From the NCBI RefSeq assembly GCF_013035425.1, contig NZ_WQHX01000001.1:62001-126000 (forward strand): DNA of 64,000 nt, in the 5' to 3' direction. The DNA is from Ruegeria arenilitoris. Lineage in GTDB: Bacteria; Pseudomonadota; Alphaproteobacteria; Rhodobacterales; Rhodobacteraceae. Shown here in pieces: positions 1 to 9,750 of this stretch. Position 1 is the stretch's first letter. Every line of letters begins with the position of its first letter. The translations under genes were made by a program, and so were the position numbers. The notes beneath the pieces were generated by a model that was not told the origin of the DNA, searched no databases, and saw only the letters and a program-made list of their open reading frames with translations.

Positions 1-148
1 AAGCCCTCTCGAGACTGCGGTGATGCAGGATACAGGCGTGAACCAGACCACCCATAAGTGGTTCCTTTTCCACGGCCGCCAGAGCCTCTGCCGTTATGCG
101 ATCCCAAACAGGATCGACGTTGGTGATTTGACTGCGCTTTTCGAACAT
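1..148 (-). CDS. cysE: Serine O-acetyltransferase CysE, N-terminal part (runs off the window start)
   Basis: Reading the minus strand from the ATG at 148 gives 49 codons that run off the window edge. They contain VWDRITAEA, ending in LHHRSLERA, which matches the N-terminal helical domain of serine acetyltransferases (E. coli CysE has VWNNIKAEA and the LLKHENLGSAL region at the same place). CysE acetylates serine with acetyl-CoA, the first committed step of cysteine synthesis. The catalytic left-handed beta-helix lies outside the window. In Rhodobacterales cysE is, as I recall, a common neighbour of the gene transfer agent cluster, which fits the genes that follow here. Confidence 0.85.
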   Translation of the reverse strand, partial: MFEKRSQITNVDPVWDRITAEALAAVEKEPLMGGLVHACILHHRSLERA

Positions 149-234
149 GGCTTTTGATCCTTTTCTGCGCCTAGAATAGCCATCTAAGGTCAAAATCACC
201 AAACGCAAACCCCTGATGTGTTATACAACAAAAA

Positions 235-573
235 ATGAACGAACATGATCACCGATATTTTGAACGACTTATCAAAGTTCGGTTGGCGTCTCTCGAGGCG
301 GAGTCAGCGTCAGGCCACGACGCACAAGCGATTGTCGAACTTGATCAGCAGGCCGTTGGACGCCTCAGCCGCATGGATGCGTTACAAAACCAGGCGATGG
401 CAAAGGCCCAGCAGGCCCGCAGGGATGTAGAAACGCGCCGGCTTCAGACCGCGCTCAGCCGAATTGCCGAAGGCGAGTACGGCTATTGCGAAGATTGCGG
501 AGACTTAATCGCTCGGGGGCGTCTGGAACTGGACCTTGCGGCAAGCAAGTGCGTCAGTTGTGCCTCTGACTGA
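235..573 (+). CDS. DksA/TraR-family C4 zinc-finger protein
   Basis: A 112-residue protein with a helical N-terminal two thirds and a C-terminal zinc finger: CEDCG near residue 83 and CVSC near residue 107. This is the C-x2-C-x17-20-C-x2-C arrangement of the DksA/TraR family. Family members enter the secondary channel of RNA polymerase and change promoter choice. It is shorter than DksA (about 150 residues) and closer in size to TraR/YbiI-type proteins. The ATG at 235 follows an A-rich stretch without a clear Shine-Dalgarno sequence. The 3' end overlaps the end of the convergent gene at 554-850 by 20 bases. Family assignment is good; a role in stringent control is inference. Confidence 0.8.
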   Translation: MNEHDHRYFERLIKVRLASLEAESASGHDAQAIVELDQQAVGRLSRMDALQNQAMAKAQQARRDVETRRLQTALSRIAEGEYGYCEDCGDLIARGRLELDLAASKCVSCASD

Positions 574-850
574 TATTAAACCGGATAAGATTACGTAGAA
601 CTATCTCGAAACACTCACAATATTGCAGGTCGTTGAAACTGGGCTCATCCGCCAATCGACGAATATACGCGACAGCCATCAGGGATCCGTTCCCGTATTT
701 AGGATGTAAACGGCCCATATCCGAAGTGTATTCGTGCGCCAATTGCGCCTCGTTAAACATTTGTAAGCATATGGATTCCCGCTCGGAAGGCGGCGCGGCC
801 AACAAGGCCCGCGCCGCTGCACTTACATCACCATGCAAAACAGTACGCAA
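554..850 (-). CDS. Small conserved protein downstream of the GTA locus (DUF7742-like)
   Basis: This 98-residue protein starts six bases after the stop of the g15 fragment on the same strand, so it probably belongs to the same transcript. It has MRTVLHGDVSAAARALL at the start, a central GRLHPKYGNGSLMAVA and a C-terminal YCECFEIVL. From memory this matches a small Rhodobacterales family (DUF7742) found beside GTA clusters. No catalytic or membrane segment is visible. Function unknown. Its intact frame, although the gene before it is truncated, suggests it is still expressed or only recently released from selection. Confidence 0.6.
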   Translation of the reverse strand: MRTVLHGDVSAAARALLAAPPSERESICLQMFNEAQLAHEYTSDMGRLHPKYGNGSLMAVAYIRRLADEPSFNDLQYCECFEIVLRNLIRFNISQRHN

Positions 851-856
851 GATGGA

Positions 857-2515
857 CTAACTTGCAGTGCAAGATGCGAAAAGGCCTGGGCCAAAGATCG
901 CTGAAACTTGAGCAACTTCGACAACGTAAGTCCCGCTTACACCATCTGCAGCCTTCGCTGTTTCCGAGTAAGACCAAATTGGAGTCGCGGTCGTCTCTTC
1001 GCGCAATAGTACCCCGTTTGAGCGAACTCGAACCAAATAAGCTTCGGTCTCTTCACCCAATGGAACATCCAAGCCGCCCCAGTCATCTCCATCCACCCGC
1101 GTGCGGCGCACCCACGAAAAGCTGTCAGCGTCGGTCTTTGACACGACTTTTAGATGAGCCGGCGCATATGGGCGCAAACCGTTGCCGTCAAATGCTTCGA
1201 CCTGGTGAACAAAAGCTGGATCCTCATACCCACGCGATGCGGGACCGATCCGATAATGTTTTGAAACGCGTCGTTCATTGCGGAGCAAGTTGAGTTGGCT
1301 GATACGATCATCGAGCAAAACGAAAACAGAGCCCTCAGGCCAAACTTCAGGCATAGCTGAATCTGTTCCCAATTGGCCGCGCAACCGACCTGAAAGGTTA
1401 AATATTCCGCCTTCTTCCAATGTTGCGTCAGAGAACTGGATTACTTCCCAATTATCGAGAGTGCCGTCACCAATGGCAGCCAAGTTGGCACCGTTCAGCA
1501 AAGCTTCTCGCGGTCGTGATTCCAGGAAGCCGTCGATCAAGTTGACCCGAAGTGGCCTGCCTTCATCCCAAATTCCGGAGCTGGCCCGCCAAAGCGGTGA
1601 CTCTGTGAAACCTATTACCGCCTGATCCGAAATAACTTGTCGCAGGGCATAATCTTCGTCCTGCGCAGCGACATAAATAGCTACATTGCCCGCCCACGGG
1701 TCTGCCGACAAAGCAAGATAGGGCGCATGTGCGGCCTCTGCCCCTGTAATGAGCGGTAGATCCATAAGTACCGGTAAAACGGGTGTCGGCGCGATAAAAG
1801 GTCTGGCGTTGACGCCATCGTCAGTGATCTCGGCGGGGGCATAAACGTCGGGTTCAATCCGAACCGCGTCGACCAGCTGCATTTCAGCCTGTTCAATCCG
1901 GTCAATACGAAAACTCGGGAAGTCCTGCTGATCCATGCCTTTCAAGCGAACAACGTCACCAGCGCCAAGATTCAGCTGAGACGGCGGCAAGGCGAAGCGC
2001 GCGGTTTCGCGCGACATCCGAGACTCGCTGAGCCACCGTTCGACAGTTTGACGTCCCTCGCCCCGGGTCATTGACAGAGCCATTTCGTTCACTGCAACTG
2101 CATGAGTACGATCATCCGGCAGCACCGCTTCTTCGGCAACGATATCGTGATCTGCGTCGGATTGAACAAAGCGTAGTCGGACCCGTCCGGCCATCTCTGC
2201 CTCGGCTTCACGCCGATACTCAACAGTGCCTTCGACATCAGAGTTGATCGCAAATCCGTCTGGGTTTACGTCAAAGGCCTTAAGACCACCACGCATCCGG
2301 AACACCAGCTTACCGTCGCGCTCAATAGCGTCGAACCCGTATCGCATCATCAGCGGCTGCAGAGCTTGGCGGCCATCCAGTACATCCTCAATCGCGTAAC
2401 CACGCACAACCCCATGCAGCCCAGACACGTCTATGTCCCGAACACCTGCTCGAAAACAGATTTCGGAAACAACAGATGCCAATGTTCGCGACCCTGACCG
2501 TCCCCTCCCTTCCAT
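857..2515 (-). pseudogene. GTA g15 host-specificity/tail protein, C-terminal remnant
   Basis: The 552-codon open frame begins inside the portal gene fragment, at an ATG (2515) that belongs to portal sequence read in another frame. From about codon 10 (position 2488) the sequence becomes typical of the C-terminal half of the large GTA tail protein g15: LASVVSEICFRAGV, GVVRGYAIEDV, LQPLMMRYGFDAIERDGKL, then the long beta-rich tail. Intact g15 proteins are about 1,300 residues with a TIM-barrel N-terminal half, which is absent. No internal stop is seen, so decay after the deletion is limited. A chimeric protein from the new ATG is possible but would have no tail-assembly partners here. Confidence 0.8.
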
Positions 2516-3165
2516 ACCAAGACCCCAGAGGGCCGGGCCGCATTGTCCAACAACGATTTTGACCAGCGAGAAGCACTGTTATGCACGTCAACCGCCATCG
2601 AAGCTGCCTGCATGGGCGAAAACCCGTAATGATCGTCCTGCGGGTGAAACGACTTGATGTGGCAGATGAACTCTGTCGGAAACCGATGTTTCCTACCGCC
2701 AACGGTATAATCATAGGCCTTAGGCCACCCGTCTGCTCCCGGTACCACACGCATCCGGTCCGAGCGCAGAACGTGTAGCTCGCTCGGTAGTCCCGCCTCG
2801 GCCTGAACGGCCTCGACATACGCATTCCCTGACAGCAGCAGCTGACCGAACAGGGCCTCCATCAATTCCGCGCGTCCCTGCGCCGCATTAGGTCGTTGCA
2901 TCAGGCTCAAGATTGGATGAACGTCATACCGTTGCGCTTGATCCTGCAACACCAGTGGCAACGCCGCCGCCGCCTCAGCCACCAGCTTTACCGACCGGAA
3001 CCCCACCGGGTTTCCCGAAAAACCCACCCGCGTCAACGAGACGGTGTCCCGGGGGCTCCATGACGCACGGCCACCAGTCTGCCATGCCACGACGGGACCT
3101 GCCGCGCTTGCCTTGGCTTCCGGTGCCTCGTTAGCCGTTCCACGACGCAAGAAATCGAATACCAT
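2431..3165 (-). pseudogene. GTA/phage portal protein g3, 3'-truncated
   Basis: The ATG at 3165 is preceded by AAGGAG at about ten bases and opens a protein MVFDFLRRG... typical of HK97-type GTA portal proteins (about 395 residues when intact). Portal features continue to LLDNAARPSGVLVWKGGDGQG at residue 225. After this the frame runs into unrelated sequence (19 residues) that is really g15 DNA read in the wrong frame, and stops at 2431. The C-terminal 40% of the portal, including the crown and stem regions, is missing. A portal ring cannot be expected. An upstream extension of the open frame to 3447 is not portal-like and was not used. Confidence 0.85.
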
Positions 3166-3308
3166 GTTCAGATGCTCCTTTCTGCCGCCGCTCTGCCCGG
3201 CTTGTTGAAAGGAGTTATGACTGAAAGAGGTTGACGGCTTCGGAATTAAGCGTTCGGCCGTTTTGCAACACGCTGTTGTACAAGATTTACCTGCTTTGCT
3301 GCAGCCCT

Positions 3309-3857
3309 TTAACCAGCGCTTAGCGATCTTCCGGTAACATAGTTGTAAGAAGCCAAAACCAACTGAAAAACAACATCCAATTCCTGTTGTGAGGAAGGTG
3401 TGTAGATCATCACAAATCCCTCCCAGCCTGGACGTTTTTTCGACCAAGGATGAGCAATTGCCCAGCCGGCCTTTATCGCTTGCCGCGCAATCTTGGGGTC
3501 GAGTGACGCATGCAGAGATCCATCAGGGTGCACATGCGCGAACTCTCGGCCACCAACTATTACCTCTGGATGTTTGAGCGGCAGTTCGTCTGCCAACCAG
3601 AAACCTTTTGCTCCTGGTAATGAAACAACTGTTTCGCGAATTTCCACATCTGGAATGTTTTCGACTCGGCTCAATAGGTCTTCGATCAATTCTGGAGCAG
3701 GCGAAACGCCAATCTGGACATGGGGCACTCCATCGGTTGTTTCCGGCCTTGGTGTCCTCCGCTCTGGCAAGTCTGTGGTTTGCGCCGCGACCGACGCAAC
3801 TGCGACAAAGAAAATTGCGGCAGTAATGTTGCCTAGCAAAACATACCTGACATTCAT
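3309..3857 (-). CDS. Secreted DUF5519 ('luciferase domain') family protein inserted in the GTA locus
   Basis: A 182-residue protein with an N-terminal signal peptide (hydrophobic residues 7-25, ending SVAAQ) and a conserved C-terminal region: LPGAKGFWL, EFAHVHPDGSLHASL, then GWAIAHPWSKKRPGWEGFV and a final helix. This pattern matches the small family called DUF5519 or luciferase domain; the name comes from annotation and says little about activity. It lies between the terminase and portal genes, which are adjacent in classical GTA clusters, so it looks like an addition to this locus. GGAGG lies about 12 bases before the ATG. Biochemical function unknown. Confidence 0.6.
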   Translation of the reverse strand: MNVRYVLLGNITAAIFFVAVASVAAQTTDLPERRTPRPETTDGVPHVQIGVSPAPELIEDLLSRVENIPDVEIRETVVSLPGAKGFWLADELPLKHPEVIVGGREFAHVHPDGSLHASLDPKIARQAIKAGWAIAHPWSKKRPGWEGFVMIYTPSSQQELDVVFQLVLASYNYVTGRSLSAG

Positions 3858-3993
3858 GGCGCGGCCTCCGTTTTCCGATGGTCGCGCAAAGACTGTTTGA
3901 TGGCAACCCTCCTGGAATCACGCTTGCAAACGGGTTTTCCGAACTTTTCGGATTTTAAACAGTCACAATTGGCCAACTCAAATACAAAAACGA

Positions 3994-5409
3994 TTATAAC
4001 ACCCTGACCCTTGGTCGCCGATATGCCGTCGCAGGCCCCACCACCAGCTCATGCAGCGCCCAGACCAGTGCGTCGACCCGGTCGGGCGAGCCCTTCCCTT
4101 CAAATCCCCGTGTGGTCATCTGGCACATCTGCTCTTCAAGCGCATCCAGCCCCGTCACGTGAACAACCCGCCCTTGCTCATACAACGCCGCTACGGGTTC
4201 TGACCTCGCGATCTTGCCGCGAGATGCCCGCACTGCTCGGAACGGGACCAGAGGATCTACTTGCCGAACGACCTCTTCAACCAAATCTCCGCCTTGATTG
4301 ATCTCGGCCACCAACCGTTCAGCCCCGAATTCATCCATCGCGTCAATCGCCGCCTGCGCCCATCCCGCTGGGCCAAGCCCTTTCACTGTTCTGTCCGCCA
4401 GTACGAATGCTCGCCAATCTTCCGGCGATCCTTCCATCTGGGCACCTACCACTACGATTCCGCAAGCATCCGCATCTGAACCCGCCGTAACTGCTGGATC
4501 CAGAGCGACCACGATGCGGTCCAAATTGGGCACATAGTCAGTTCGCGTTGAGTCCAGCATCGACACTGTCCATAGCGCGCCTTCGGCATCTGACAGCAAA
4601 ACGCCGTCCAATTCCTGGCGTCCTAACCGCGTACCCGCGTATCGTGACCTCACTTCCTCTAAAAACGATCCGGCCAGGTTAGCGCGGTTCGCCTCGGTTT
4701 TTGCATGCGTTTGTACCGTCGACGGTGACGCCAAAAGATCCTTCAAAACTTTAACATTCTTCGGTGTCGTCGTTACGCAGACGCGCGGTCGCTCGCCCAG
4801 CCGTAAGGCGAACTGTAACATATCCCAAGTTTCACCTGCCTTCTTCCATTTCGCCAGCTCATCCACCCAAGCCGCATCGAATTGTGGCCCTCGCAAACCT
4901 TCCGGGTCATACGCAGAAAACACCTGTGCTTCTGCTCCATTCGGCCAGATTAGTTTTCGCTCGGTAGCTTTCCACATTGGGCGGCGATCTGGCGGTGAAC
5001 ACCGCAAAATCCCGCTTTCGCCAAAGATCATCACATCGCGAACCTGATCGAAAGTTTCACCAACCAGCGCAACCCGTCTGGCTTCGCCGCAATCCATCGG
5101 GTTTGCACCCTCGACCATCGAGCGTACCCATTCGGCACCTGCTCGCGTCTTACCTGCACCGCGTCCGCCCATAATCACCCATGACCGCCAATCGCCTTCT
5201 GGTGGCAGCTGGTGTGGCATTGCCCAAAACTCGAATAGAAAAGGGAGGGCGCACAGCCCTCCCTCCCCAATCTCACTCAGGAATCTGTCCTGCACCGCAG
5301 CAGGCGCGGAGGCGAGCCAGCCTGCACCCAATCTCAGATCGCGCCCGTTCAAGGTCGAGCGCGTAACCTCCTTGGGCAATTCCGGCTTGCCTGTGATGTT
5401 GTTCGACAA
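3994..5409 (-). CDS. GTA terminase large subunit (g2, TerL)
   Basis: A 471-residue DNA-packaging motor protein. It shows a Walker A motif GGRGAGKT at residues 81-88, a Walker B region with AAWVDELAKW, VCVTTTPKN as the coupling motif, a nuclease domain beginning VVALDPAVTAG, and the C-terminal SPDRVDALVWALHEL typical of this family. The frame is complete and all core motifs are present, in contrast to the portal and g15 genes downstream. The chosen TTG start (5409) has GGAG about eight bases upstream and makes the gene overlap g1 by 137 bases; an internal start nearer GAGWLASAP (codons 28-36) is also possible. With capsid genes missing here, what DNA it could package is unclear. Confidence 0.88.
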   Translation of the reverse strand: MSNNITGKPELPKEVTRSTLNGRDLRLGAGWLASAPAAVQDRFLSEIGEGGLCALPFLFEFWAMPHQLPPEGDWRSWVIMGGRGAGKTRAGAEWVRSMVEGANPMDCGEARRVALVGETFDQVRDVMIFGESGILRCSPPDRRPMWKATERKLIWPNGAEAQVFSAYDPEGLRGPQFDAAWVDELAKWKKAGETWDMLQFALRLGERPRVCVTTTPKNVKVLKDLLASPSTVQTHAKTEANRANLAGSFLEEVRSRYAGTRLGRQELDGVLLSDAEGALWTVSMLDSTRTDYVPNLDRIVVALDPAVTAGSDADACGIVVVGAQMEGSPEDWRAFVLADRTVKGLGPAGWAQAAIDAMDEFGAERLVAEINQGGDLVEEVVRQVDPLVPFRAVRASRGKIARSEPVAALYEQGRVVHVTGLDALEEQMCQMTTRGFEGKGSPDRVDALVWALHELVVGPATAYRRPRVRVL

Positions 5410-5635
5410 AGCTTATCTCCACTTTCTGGCAACTTCGGATCAGCCCCTCTAGCTGACCAAGTTGTTTCGCTGAACCAGCAAAATCTGCATCCTCCCCGGC
5501 TCCAATCCGCCTGTGCAGTTCTTCCGCTGCTTGGCGCAGATTGCGAATGGACCTCTCGAGCGACTGCAAAAGATCTGCAGTCTGTGAAATCCGCTCTTCC
5601 GGGGTTATCAAAGTCATATTTGCCTGTGACCTCAT
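5273..5635 (-). CDS. GTA g1-like protein (terminase small subunit candidate)
   Basis: A 120-residue, mostly helical protein (LLQSLERSIRNLRQAAEEL) encoded immediately upstream of, and overlapping, the terminase large subunit. Position and size match g1 of the Rhodobacter capsulatus GTA, which has been described as the small terminase that recruits TerL to DNA. GGAG lies 11 bases before the ATG at 5635; a second ATG at 5617 (MTLITPEERISQ) is an alternative start. It is the first gene of the GTA transcript, so the region upstream, with two dyads at 5668 and 5717, should hold the promoter. The role is inferred mainly from position. Confidence 0.65.
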   Translation of the reverse strand: MRSQANMTLITPEERISQTADLLQSLERSIRNLRQAAEELHRRIGAGEDADFAGSAKQLGQLEGLIRSCQKVEISFVEQHHRQAGIAQGGYALDLERARSEIGCRLARLRACCGAGQIPE

Positions 5636-5840: not shown

Positions 5841-6728
5841 CTATCCTCGCGCAATCTCCAAAAACGCCGCGCTTACGATAAGTGTAGCGCCAAAGAACTC
5901 TCGCATGCCGAACGGTTCTCCGGACAGCAATGCTGCAGACATTAGTCCAACCACAACCTCGCTCATCAACAACAGGCCGACTCGCGCTGGAGTGAGCTTT
6001 GTAGAAGGCCAAATCGTAAGATAAATCATCGGAAGAGTATAAAGAACGGAAAGGGCGGCGAATGGCAAAACGTCCATTAAGACGCCGTTGCTGCCATTCA
6101 ACCTCAAAGCTCCGGCCCCAAGGAATAAGCTAACAATTGACAGGATCAGTGCGCCGAATAGAAAAGCGAAAATTTGCCCCCCAACCGGCACCGACTTGGT
6201 TCGGTATAGTCCGAGCGTCCCAACGGCCCATGTCATGCCAGAAATCAGCGCTAACCAGTCGCCCACATTGCGCGGCCAAGGAATCGATTGTTCACCGCCT
6301 AGAACTACAAAAAGCCCGCAAACCCCGCACAATAGGCTAAGTAACCGGAGGGGACCCAATCTCTCGCCTAAGAACACAAATCCTAAGACAGTGCCCCAAA
6401 TTGGCGTCAAATAGAAAAGCAGGATAGATCGGGCGACTTCTGTGTAGGCCAAGCTGATCGAATACAGACTGAATGCTGCCCCTGTGAATACACCACTGAA
6501 AACTAGGCCGCGCCATTCTTGAGCCAAAGCCTGTCGACTTCTCCACAAAATCGGGATCAGAACGACAAGCGCAGTTGTATACATCGCGATCCCCGGCCAG
6601 GCGCCATCCAGACCCATTTCCAAAAAAAATCGGACTGGAATCCAATAAAGACCCCACAGCATTCCTCCACACACCAGCGCTATGCTGGCTGTTCGAATGT
6701 CGCGATTTTGTGTGATTCCTTGGGTCAT
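5841..6728 (-). CDS. EamA/DMT-superfamily transporter
   Basis: A 295-residue inner membrane protein with about ten hydrophobic helices in two repeated halves, as in the drug/metabolite transporter EamA family. The first half has GGMLWGLYWIPVRFF and the conserved loop LLFYLTPIWGTVLGFVFLGERLG; the second half repeats the pattern with MIYLTIWPSTKLTPARVG and MSEVVVGLMSAALLSGEPFG. Such proteins export or exchange small metabolites; the substrate cannot be told. It stands alone, upstream of the GTA operon on the same strand with about 200 bases between. Confidence 0.85.
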   Translation of the reverse strand: MTQGITQNRDIRTASIALVCGGMLWGLYWIPVRFFLEMGLDGAWPGIAMYTTALVVLIPILWRSRQALAQEWRGLVFSGVFTGAAFSLYSISLAYTEVARSILLFYLTPIWGTVLGFVFLGERLGPLRLLSLLCGVCGLFVVLGGEQSIPWPRNVGDWLALISGMTWAVGTLGLYRTKSVPVGGQIFAFLFGALILSIVSLFLGAGALRLNGSNGVLMDVLPFAALSVLYTLPMIYLTIWPSTKLTPARVGLLLMSEVVVGLMSAALLSGEPFGMREFFGATLIVSAAFLEIARG

Positions 6729-7220
6729 TACCGGTCCAATTTCTTAGGTCGTTACTTTGATGGATTGCACTCGTGCCCAATTACTTTTGGAATGCAACTC
6801 GGAACCAACAGCATTGAAAAAAAAGTTTTTAACAAATCGTTAACATCACAGGAAAATTGTTGCGTCCAAGCGTAACCATTAAAGCCAATTCCCGTCAGTG
6901 TAACACTCGCGATACAATATTATTCCGAAAATGATACTGACCATAGACAAGAAGTCCATTCCACCGAGCTCGGTCTTGACATTCTCTTCCTCAACACGCA
7001 TTTGCCTCGCAAAACAGCGCTAACGCGTGAGCAACAAAGGGCCAATTGAGCTGGTCCTGCAGCGCCCTATAACCTCCAGTTCCCCATCACGCAGGGTTCT
7101 TGAAGCGACGACCACATGTGGCGGGGTATTTCCGTTCTTCCCGAGGTCGCGCACAACCCCTGCTGACCACGCATACTGCGTGCTCTGCAATAACTCGTCT
7201 GTGGGACAATCCCGCAGAAA
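6729..7220. other. Intergenic region between divergent EamA and DEAD-box genes
   Basis: A 492-base stretch without a convincing gene. The first part is AT-rich (A8 run near 6820). A TTGACA hexamer occurs at 6976 but the matching -10 is weak. Short frames on both strands across 7020-7300 lack family resemblance and initiation signals. The second half could be a long 5' leader of the helicase mRNA, as seen for several cold-induced RNA helicases, but no specific structure was recognised. Confidence 0.4.
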
Positions 7221-8498
7221 ATGAAGGAATATTACTTGTTCGATTTCGACATGCTCGGGCTTGCGCCAGAACTGAACCAAGCACTAAAACGCGCAAAACT
7301 CACCCAGCCTACACCGATCCAAAATCAGGCAATTCCATTGGCGTTGGATGGCCAAGATATCTTAGGATTGGCACAGACCGGTACCGGAAAAACGCTGGCA
7401 TTTGGCCTGCCGTTGATTGACCACCTTCTAGCGCAACCCGGCAAGCCGGCGCCCAAGACGACCAAGTCGCTGGTCCTTGCCCCCACGCGCGAATTGGTCA
7501 ATCAGATCGCCGACAGTTTACGCGCCTTGACGCATAAGACAAAAATTCGGGTCGCAACCGTGGTTGGCGGCCAGTCCATCAACAAACAAGTCATGTTTCT
7601 TGCGCGCGGCACAGACATTCTGGTGGCCACTCCGGGCCGACTAATTGACCTTATGGATCGTGGCGCAGTCGATCTTAGCTCGGTCAAACATCTGGTAATG
7701 GACGAAGCTGATCAGATGCTGGACATGGGCTTTATTCACGCTTTGCGCCGCATCGCGCCAGAACTTGGCACACCACGGCAAACGATGCTGTTTTCAGCGA
7801 CAATGCCAAAACAAATGGAAGAACTGAGCCGGGCCTATCTCAGCAATCCCAAACGCGTGCAAGTTTCCCCTCCTGGTAAAGCCGCAGACAAGATCAGGCA
7901 GTCCGTACACTTTGTGGCTCGTTCCGAAAAGCCTGCCAAATTGCGCGAAATTTTGTCCAAGGACGCTGGCGCTCTGACGCTAGTGTTTTCACGCACAAAA
8001 CACGGCGCCGAAAAACTGATGAAAGGACTGGTGTCAGAAGGGTTCAATGCTGCCTCAATTCACGGCAACAAAACTCAGGGTCAACGTGATCGTGCGATCA
8101 AGGCATTCCGACAAGGCGAAATCAACGTTTTGGTTGCAACCGATGTCGCCGCGCGTGGTATCGATATTCCTGGCGTAGCCTACGTAATCAACTACGACCT
8201 GCCCACGGTACCAGACAATTACGTCCATCGCATCGGCCGTACAGCACGCGCAGGGCGCGAAGGAGAGGCTATCTCATTCTGCACCAAGGACGAAGTTGAT
8301 CAACTTCGGCAAATTCAAAAGTTGATGAAAGCCGAAATACCAGTTGCAAGCGGCTCGATGCCGGAAGCAGTAGAAAAAACAAAGCAGGCGCGACACCGAG
8401 GCAAAGGTCGCCGCGGTCCAAGCAGCAATCAGAACTTAGGCGGTGCTAAACCAGCGGCGCAAAAGAGACGCCGCCCAAGACGCAGAAAGGCTGCCTGA
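7221..8498 (+). CDS. DEAD-box ATP-dependent RNA helicase (RhlE/DbpA-like)
   Basis: A 425-residue protein with the full motif series: Q-motif (FDFDMLGL ... TQPTPIQNQAIP), motif I AQTGTGKT, PTRELVNQI, TPGRLIDL, motif II DEAD, motif III SAT, and in the second RecA domain ARGIDIPGVAYVINYDLP and HRIGRTARAG. The last 45 residues are rich in Lys and Arg (KTKQARHRGKGRRGPSS), a common nonspecific RNA-binding tail. It unwinds short RNA duplexes in ribosome assembly or mRNA turnover. The ATG at 7221 has no strong Shine-Dalgarno; MLGLAPEL (codon 11) is an alternative start. Confidence 0.92.
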   Translation: MKEYYLFDFDMLGLAPELNQALKRAKLTQPTPIQNQAIPLALDGQDILGLAQTGTGKTLAFGLPLIDHLLAQPGKPAPKTTKSLVLAPTRELVNQIADSLRALTHKTKIRVATVVGGQSINKQVMFLARGTDILVATPGRLIDLMDRGAVDLSSVKHLVMDEADQMLDMGFIHALRRIAPELGTPRQTMLFSATMPKQMEELSRAYLSNPKRVQVSPPGKAADKIRQSVHFVARSEKPAKLREILSKDAGALTLVFSRTKHGAEKLMKGLVSEGFNAASIHGNKTQGQRDRAIKAFRQGEINVLVATDVAARGIDIPGVAYVINYDLPTVPDNYVHRIGRTARAGREGEAISFCTKDEVDQLRQIQKLMKAEIPVASGSMPEAVEKTKQARHRGKGRRGPSSNQNLGGAKPAAQKRRRPRRRKAA

Positions 8499-8518
8499 CT
8501 TCGTCGGACATTAAAAAT

Positions 8519-8555
8519 ATTGTTTCCTGTCGCTATGACAGCGACGGGAAACAAT
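8519..8555 (-). terminator. Rho-independent terminator of mltG
   Basis: Arms ATTGTTTCCTGTCGC (8519-8533) and GCGACGGGAAACAAT (8541-8555) pair over 15 bp with one G-U. On the minus strand the hairpin is followed by ATTTTTAA, fitting termination of the fabF-mltG transcript; it also sits after the convergent helicase gene. Confidence 0.75.
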
Positions 8556-8589
8556 AAGATCCTTGCGCCGGCATTTGCCGAAACAAAGT

Positions 8590-9750
8590 TTAGTTGTTGG
8601 AGTTGTTTTGCTCCGCTTCTATCTCACGCCACTTCGCGACATTACGGTTGTGCTCCTGAAGCGTTTCAGCAAACGCGTGGCCGCCTGTTCCGTCAGCCAC
8701 GAAGAACACAAAATCCGTATCGTCCGGCGCTACAGCCGCCTCAAGACTAGCGAGTCCTGGGTTGGCAATCGGAGTCGGTGGCAACCCATCGATCTGGTAA
8801 GTATTCCAAGGGGTTGGTCGATTCAGTTCGCTGCGGCGCAAACCACGGCCCAGAACGCCGCGACCCTTAGTTACGCCGTAAATAACCGTCGGATCCGTTT
8901 GCAACTTCATACCCTGATTCAATCGGTTCACAAAAACGCTGGCCACCTGACCGCGCTCCTCTGGCACACCAGTTTCCTTTTCGATGATAGAAGCAAGGAT
9001 CAGCATTTCTTCTGGATTGCTCAAAGGCAAACCGTCCTGCCGTCTCTCCCAAGCGGCGTTGATCCTCAATTGCTGCTTCGCCTGCATATCGCTTAATACT
9101 TCATTTCGGTCTGTTCCTGACGTCACTTCATAGCTATCAGGTGCCAACATTCCTTCTGCCGGAATCTCCGCGACCTCACCACCAAGGAAATCGGCCGACT
9201 TCAGCGCCTCAACGACTTGCCAACTGGTAACCCCTTCCGCCAACGAAATACGATATCGAGTATCCGCGTCGTTGCGTTTTTCTCCGTAAATATCCGGCGT
9301 TTCATCTACGTCTGTCTCGAACATTGCGATTTCAACAAAGTCCAACGTAGCCGGGTCCAGTTCACGGACTCGCGTCTGCGTTCTGGTCACACCTATACGG
9401 TATTCGATCTCTGTCCCGCATGTACTGGCACCGCTTTTTGTGATGTCCTCCACGATCTGTTCCATGGATGAGCCTTCCCGAACCAGAAAACTCCCGGCTT
9501 TCAACTGCTGCGACTTGTCAGAGTAATCCGCTCCCATGCGAAAGATCGTTGCGTTGCTGATCGCGCCTTGATCTTCAAGTTCGCGGCTAACCCGTGTCAT
9601 ATTCGAACCGCTTTTCACCTGCAGGCAAATTGCCGTTTCCAACGGCCCATCCGCTCTGTATTGCGACTGACCCCACAATATCACGCCACCAATTAGAAAC
9701 ATGCCAACCACCAGAATGGTCAGCATGTTTGACGCAAGACCTCGCCACAT
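8590..9750 (-). CDS. mltG: Endolytic murein transglycosylase MltG (YceG-like)
   Basis: A 386-residue protein with one N-terminal membrane helix (MLTILVVGMFLIGGVILWG), a LysM-like region (GSNMTRVSRELEDQGAI) and the YceG catalytic domain with ILASIIEKETGVPEERG, where the central Glu is the catalytic residue, then LQTDPTVIYGVT and SLEAAVAPDDTDFVFFVADG. MltG cleaves nascent glycan strands at the inner membrane and helps set glycan length. It starts directly after the fabF stop codon (zero-base gap), the usual fabF-mltG pairing in alphaproteobacteria, so the two are co-transcribed. A terminator follows. Confidence 0.95.
   Translation of the reverse strand: MWRGLASNMLTILVVGMFLIGGVILWGQSQYRADGPLETAICLQVKSGSNMTRVSRELEDQGAISNATIFRMGADYSDKSQQLKAGSFLVREGSSMEQIVEDITKSGASTCGTEIEYRIGVTRTQTRVRELDPATLDFVEIAMFETDVDETPDIYGEKRNDADTRYRISLAEGVTSWQVVEALKSADFLGGEVAEIPAEGMLAPDSYEVTSGTDRNEVLSDMQAKQQLRINAAWERRQDGLPLSNPEEMLILASIIEKETGVPEERGQVASVFVNRLNQGMKLQTDPTVIYGVTKGRGVLGRGLRRSELNRPTPWNTYQIDGLPPTPIANPGLASLEAAVAPDDTDFVFFVADGTGGHAFAETLQEHNRNVAKWREIEAEQNNSNN

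Follow-up and report, generated by a model that had tools for sequence, protein, structure and literature searches.

Gene content of the locus

The window analysed in this study is a stretch of 64,000 nucleotides from the genome of Ruegeria arenilitoris. Its minus strand carries, at positions 857-5635, an RcGTA-type head-tail operon with a large internal loss. From position 5635 downwards, the order is g1, g2, a luciferase-domain gene, the start of g3, the end of g15, g16, a gene on the other strand that we take to be of the DksA type, and cysE. The small-terminase-like g1 (5273-5635, minus strand, 120 aa), which was matched upstream of g2 in related loci, is intact, as is the large terminase g2 (3994-5409, minus strand, 471 aa), with Terminase_6N and Terminase_6C matched over nearly the full model length. 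The terminase is 86-90% identical within Ruegeria, the genus of its best named matches.

As for g3, the truncated portal frame (2431-3165, minus strand) matches positions 2-167 only of the 321 in Phage_portal (PF04860), short of a whole-domain match. The 3' part of g15, the megatron gene (857-2515, minus strand, open frame of 552 aa), covers positions 754-1298 only of the 1299 in the GTA megatron model NF048004, with 551 bits against a curated cut-off of 800, and is 74% identical to the g15 of the complete relative G018 over codons 780-1320. The g16-like gene (DUF7742; 554-850, minus strand), the presumed DksA-type gene (235-573, plus strand) and the 5' end of cysE (2-208, minus strand), cut by the window edge and 90% identical to that of G018 (L120), follow in the same order as in relatives. 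On the whole, g1, g2, the 5' part of g3, the 3' part of g15, g16 and cysE are homologous to those of a GTA cluster and its flanks and lie in the same order, but the complete, ordered g2-g15 set of a functional RcGTA-type cluster is not present, g4-g14 being absent from the locus.

Upstream of g1, the interval 5841-9750 holds genes that are presumably an EamA-like transporter and a DEAD-box helicase-like gene, up to and including a presumed MltG/YceG-like gene (8590-9750). Among 80 related loci, the EamA-like transporter had a match in L020 and L021, besides the window's own locus. In R. capsulatus, yceG lies directly before g1 (PMC9552610).

Between g2 and g3, a gene for a 182-aa protein with a luciferase domain (PF17648, by domain match) is found at 3309-3857 on the minus strand. 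The earlier note had called it a foreign gene between terminase and portal; the gene is indeed there, but it is not part of the deletion event, because an ORF of at least 80 aa (22 families in all) occupies the same gap in 36 of the 37 Ruegeria loci where g2 is complete and g3 has its start. To judge from this gene content, the g2-g3 gap is a cargo slot, and the luciferase-domain gene is unrelated to the deletion. Across all 37 loci (Ruegeria loci among L120-L173) the gap measures 558-2972 bp, and among the ten of these proteins that were scanned are a short-chain dehydrogenase, a SUKH protein, a cation efflux protein, a methyltransferase and an adenylate cyclase.

The deletion junction and the missing genes

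Alignment to the intact clusters of relatives, a check proposed in the earlier note, mapped the join to positions 2503-2492. There, the stretch GGACGGTCAGGG (2492-2503, minus strand) fits both genes, reading G-D-G-Q-G as portal and G-R-S-G as g15 in different frames. Portal sequence continues to about position 2491 and is followed by out-of-frame codons up to a stop at 2433-2431. About 225 portal codons are kept, as are the last 545 or so of g15 in a different frame; the join thus runs out of frame from g3 codon ~225 to g15 codon ~780, leaving a truncated portal and a separate, overlapping g15 C-terminal ORF. In the intact G018, the two breakpoints are 9,919 bp apart, i.e. ~9.9 kb are missing. 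One deletion would have taken the end of g3, the whole of g4-g14 and roughly the first 60% of g15, the join probably lying at a short stretch common to both genes.

These results bear out most of what the earlier note had read from the letters: the minus-strand order and frames (g1, intact terminase, a further gene, 5' portal, 3' g15), a portal that runs to G-D-G-Q-G near 2491 and then changes frame, and the absence of g4-g14 through a single large deletion of about 10 kb. The switch from portal to g15 in another frame likewise stands, with g15 homology beginning at about 2503 and not at the proposed 2488. A single large internal deletion of the GTA operon, joined out of frame, is therefore supported as the right reading of the sequence.

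Relocation of g4-g14 to another place, for which the earlier note had advised a search of the rest of the genome, was ruled out by a DNA search and a capsid search of the strain's own genome. A 9,180-bp query from an intact relative, which starts at g3 and, by the G018 spacing, extends beyond the g15 start, matched the portal piece only (next best E 1.7), and no match to the GTA capsid was obtained at E 0.001. When 33 genomes were searched, the GTA capsid (at least 90% identical) was recovered from both controls and from G032 and G048. It was absent from the window's genome (G000), the remaining five deleted genomes, the 10 Ruegeria genomes with the fusion described below and 13 fusion genomes of other genera; in four fusion genomes, this search gave matches of 28-35% identity only. 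The deleted operons of G032 and G048 (L122, L123) keep g1-g5, with the capsid, and lose the tail genes.

Operon losses in the genus

The intact gene set was mapped onto the GTA loci of all 54 retrieved genomes of the genus. Every gene from g2 to g15 was present in one piece and over more than 85% of its length in 32 genomes, one or two genes were absent, split or truncated at the end of a contig in four (G014, G035, G036 and G046), and 18 had a large internal deletion of the operon. Such losses are common in the genus, and that of the window's operon is one among many. All 18 deleted genomes keep g16 and cysE, and 17 keep the start of g1 or of g2, the exception, within the stretch fetched, being G004. 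The right-hand breakpoints all fall in g14 or g15. The window's two breakpoints are private (0/53 other genomes), as are those of certain other deletions of this operon in related genomes.

In G036 (L137), g3-g15 is complete but no g1 or g2 was found ahead of it, which may represent a different type of GTA loss. With an rpoB G+C of 0.556, the window's lineage ranks lowest among the 54 genomes (median 0.588), and its branches are long in several trees.

A g2-g15 fusion shared among genera

Ten of the 18 deleted Ruegeria operons have the same in-frame join, from about g2 codon 184 to g15 codon 671, which links the terminase Walker B motif W-x-D-E to x-G-C of g15; the window is without this exact junction (W-x-D-E-x/G-C). 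Directly behind the E, the residue is that of g15 (L, Y, F, M or I) and not that of g2 (L in 72/76), which places the switch at the E codon.

The exact junction was found in at least 14 of 296 genomes of the family (approximately one per genus), at least 13 of them outside Ruegeria, and all 14 read W-x-D-E-x-G-C at the join. With the g15 remnant, devoid of terminase, as the query against 5.8 billion proteins, 648 matches were obtained; among the best 120 of these, 59 carry the terminase motif and 59/59 have the exact junction. Querying with the fusion itself, a choice biased towards fusions, gave the exact junction in 122/122, with Walker A (G-x-R-x-x-G-K-T) in 120 of them. In another genus, both genomes (G265 and G403) carry the fusion, and the genus of G262 consists of a single genome. 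Carriage of the fusion by viral contigs was discarded: IMG/VR yielded 108 loci, and the junction motif is absent from all 80 that were retained. A literature search, including the available portions of PMC9836097 and PMC10883770, returned no report of the junction.

Origin and maintenance of the fusion

The fusions do not form a clade in g15 (p 7e-57), in g1-g2 (p 1e-4), in the 150 bp that flank the join on either side (p 6e-4) or in rpoB (p 8e-80, the row of G036 apparently having been read on the wrong strand). Another genus has four fusions among 56 genomes, fusion G381 being sister to the complete G382 at 100/100. The three of them tested are not a clade either (p 3e-87, although the first 300 bp alone are not decisive, p 0.06), in a tree that leaves out seven loci of 30, including one fusion, for lack of a match to the motif pattern. 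The clade of G038, G039, G042 and G051 possibly reflects a single shared event. As for exchange, the complete loci of G010 and G034 (L134, L160) have a lower pS in g15 (0.17) than in rpoB (0.24), pointing to recent transfer of the GTA region between species. Either many separate events produced the fusion at a single codon, or the fusion is a functional allele of old date that has been passed between lineages.

The reading frame of the fusion is open over at least 845 codons in nine of the ten Ruegeria copies, G037 being broken, and over at least 827 codons in 10 of 13 from other genera (G102 and G331 are shorter, and G178 runs off its contig). Clear secondary lesions were seen in 4/8 non-fusion deleted loci (G003, G004, G007 and G048) vs. 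1/10 fusions (G037); a Fisher test (p 0.043) that had counted 5/8 non-fusion loci was set aside when inspection gave 4/8. Between the sister fusions G038 and G039, dN/dS is 0.067 for the g2-derived and 0.055 for the g15-derived portion (g15 pS 0.64), the median g15 value for 193 pairs of complete loci of like divergence being 0.113. Between G265 and G403, it is 0.17 in the g2 part, with g15 synonymous sites saturated. If the fusion predates these species splits, purifying selection acts on it; the alternative is two identical events each time. Decay of g1 while the fusion is kept was ruled out, as 15 of the 16 fusion loci from other genera have an open g1 core; in a control of 54 related loci (a few from Ruegeria, taken irrespective of completeness), this core is open in 49 of 53 matches.

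From these sequence comparisons, the fusion gene seems to be kept intact. Counted against a kept role are the broken fusions, the 2.5 times expected nonsynonymous change in the g2 part of G028 and the poorly predicted link in the AlphaFold model. This model (50 sequences; mean pLDDT 75, pTM 0.48) is predicted as separate modules with a poorly predicted link, residues 180 to 290 including blocks at 34-64, and a fold search with it returned mainly phage baseplate and tail-tip proteins. G028 also has a split g1, and G039 a changed Walker A.

That the shared fusion merely records repeated independent deletions at one codon, with no function kept, is a possible though somewhat doubtful account. It agrees with the lack of a single clade, with the existence of broken copies and with flanks as similar to those of intact sisters near the join as far away (e.g. 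fusion G006 and its complete sister G002), but it has to contend with the single codon used in 122/122, the low dN/dS between sister fusions and the absence of a repeat at the site. In 32 complete Ruegeria loci, the fusion site offers a match of 2-8 bp, vs. best repeats of 12-17 bp elsewhere, and it is among the gapped local alignments in 2/34; a direct-repeat deletion hot spot was rejected on these grounds. No distant homology between g2 and g15 was detected around the join (BLASTP E 0.64).

The other reading, which we consider close to an even bet while leaning slightly against it, is that the GTA locus of Rhodobacteraceae has a second maintained state, made of g1, a gene in which the ATPase half of the terminase (Walker A and B) is joined codon-exactly to the g15 C-terminal part, and g16. 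The fusion would be a functional gene built from the two ends of the operon, in non-producers that keep recipient functions, and would have spread as a GTA-removing allele short enough for GTA packing or formed repeatedly at one site. The private, out-of-frame deletion of the window would then represent a third state.

State of the window's operon

Concerning the window itself, its locus is best explained, with a probability of about 0.88, as a dead RcGTA-type head-tail operon resulting from one ~9.9 kb deletion. In RcGTA biology, no particle forms without portal, capsid, tail and complete baseplate protein. The window's lineage would be unable to make particles, because the missing DNA and the GTA capsid are found nowhere else in its genome; it would be a GTA non-producer keeping the 5' end of the operon together with g16 and cysE as intact neighbours, and the open frames left over are most likely the remains of a recent loss.

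Mean pN/pS between the window and intact relatives vs. among intact relatives is 0.116 vs. 0.111 for the terminase, 0.110 vs. 0.092 for the portal piece and 0.255 vs. 0.242 for the g15 piece, a comparison weakened by the far diverged synonymous sites of the window's lineage (pS 0.61-0.78). The observed/expected ratio of 2.27 for the window's terminase extrapolates past the fitted range and was set aside. Since the pN/pS values are near those among intact relatives, the remnant genes appear to have undergone little or no decay so far. For the terminase, pN/pS fits both a recent loss and a gene still selected, and its intact, stop-free 471 aa could mean selection for another role. A recent loss is more likely than continued use of the piece, because the join is out of frame and private.

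It is improbable that g1, g2 or the g15 C-terminal part has been kept for some other function in the cell, as seems to be the case for the exact g2-g15 fusion: all remaining frames are open, pN/pS is not raised and relatives keep the same two operon ends as a single open frame, but here the frame is lost at the join, the portal is truncated and the breakpoints occur in none of 53 other genomes, hence no lineage shows retention. An assembly or binning error, by which g4-g14 exist in the strain and were lost at the join, can practically be dismissed. In its favour, the genome is a draft (4.79 Mb, 26 contigs), and a single contig carries the junction protein (90% protein cluster of the g15 remnant). 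Against it, the junction is embedded in a contig of 1.14 Mb, neither g4-g14 DNA nor a GTA capsid gene is found on other contigs of this genome, which is 99.69% complete, and large deletions affect this operon in 17 further genomes of the genus.

Relation to known GTA systems and significance

The window's locus resembles the RcGTA head-tail cluster of Rhodobacter capsulatus (g1-g15, PDB 6TBA) in the order and homology of g2, g3 and g15, followed by g16 and cysE, and differs from it by the lack of g4-g14, of the end of g3 and of about the first 60% of g15, and by a cargo gene between g2 and g3. Compared with the megatron g15/Rcc01698 (NF048004; Bardy et al. 2020, PMC7296036), as far as the consulted part of that source describes it, the C-terminal part is kept, and the iris, adhesin-like and peripheral parts are gone. 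By the domain limits given there in RcGTA residue numbers, which are approximate here, the retained part is the central and fibre-binding one.

Pseudogenisation and loss of GTAs in several lineages, with possible cheaters, were described by Kogay et al. 2024 (PMC10883770, consulted in part). Like those clusters, that of the window is non-functional while relatives have complete ones, and a non-producer keeping receipt functions fits the cheater idea. In contrast, the lesions were mapped here within one genus (18/54), and ten of them share a codon-exact in-frame junction that the consulted part of PMC10883770 does not mention.

A genus in which one third of the sampled species have lost producer genes, all 18 keeping g16 and cysE, offers a natural experiment on producers vs. 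non-producers. GTA release kills the producer cell, and such a genus bears on why bacteria keep GTAs. Should the exact fusion prove to be a maintained gene, the loss of GTAs would be more than decay: it would yield a new allele, with possible roles in protection against GTAs, in DNA receipt or in competition with producers.
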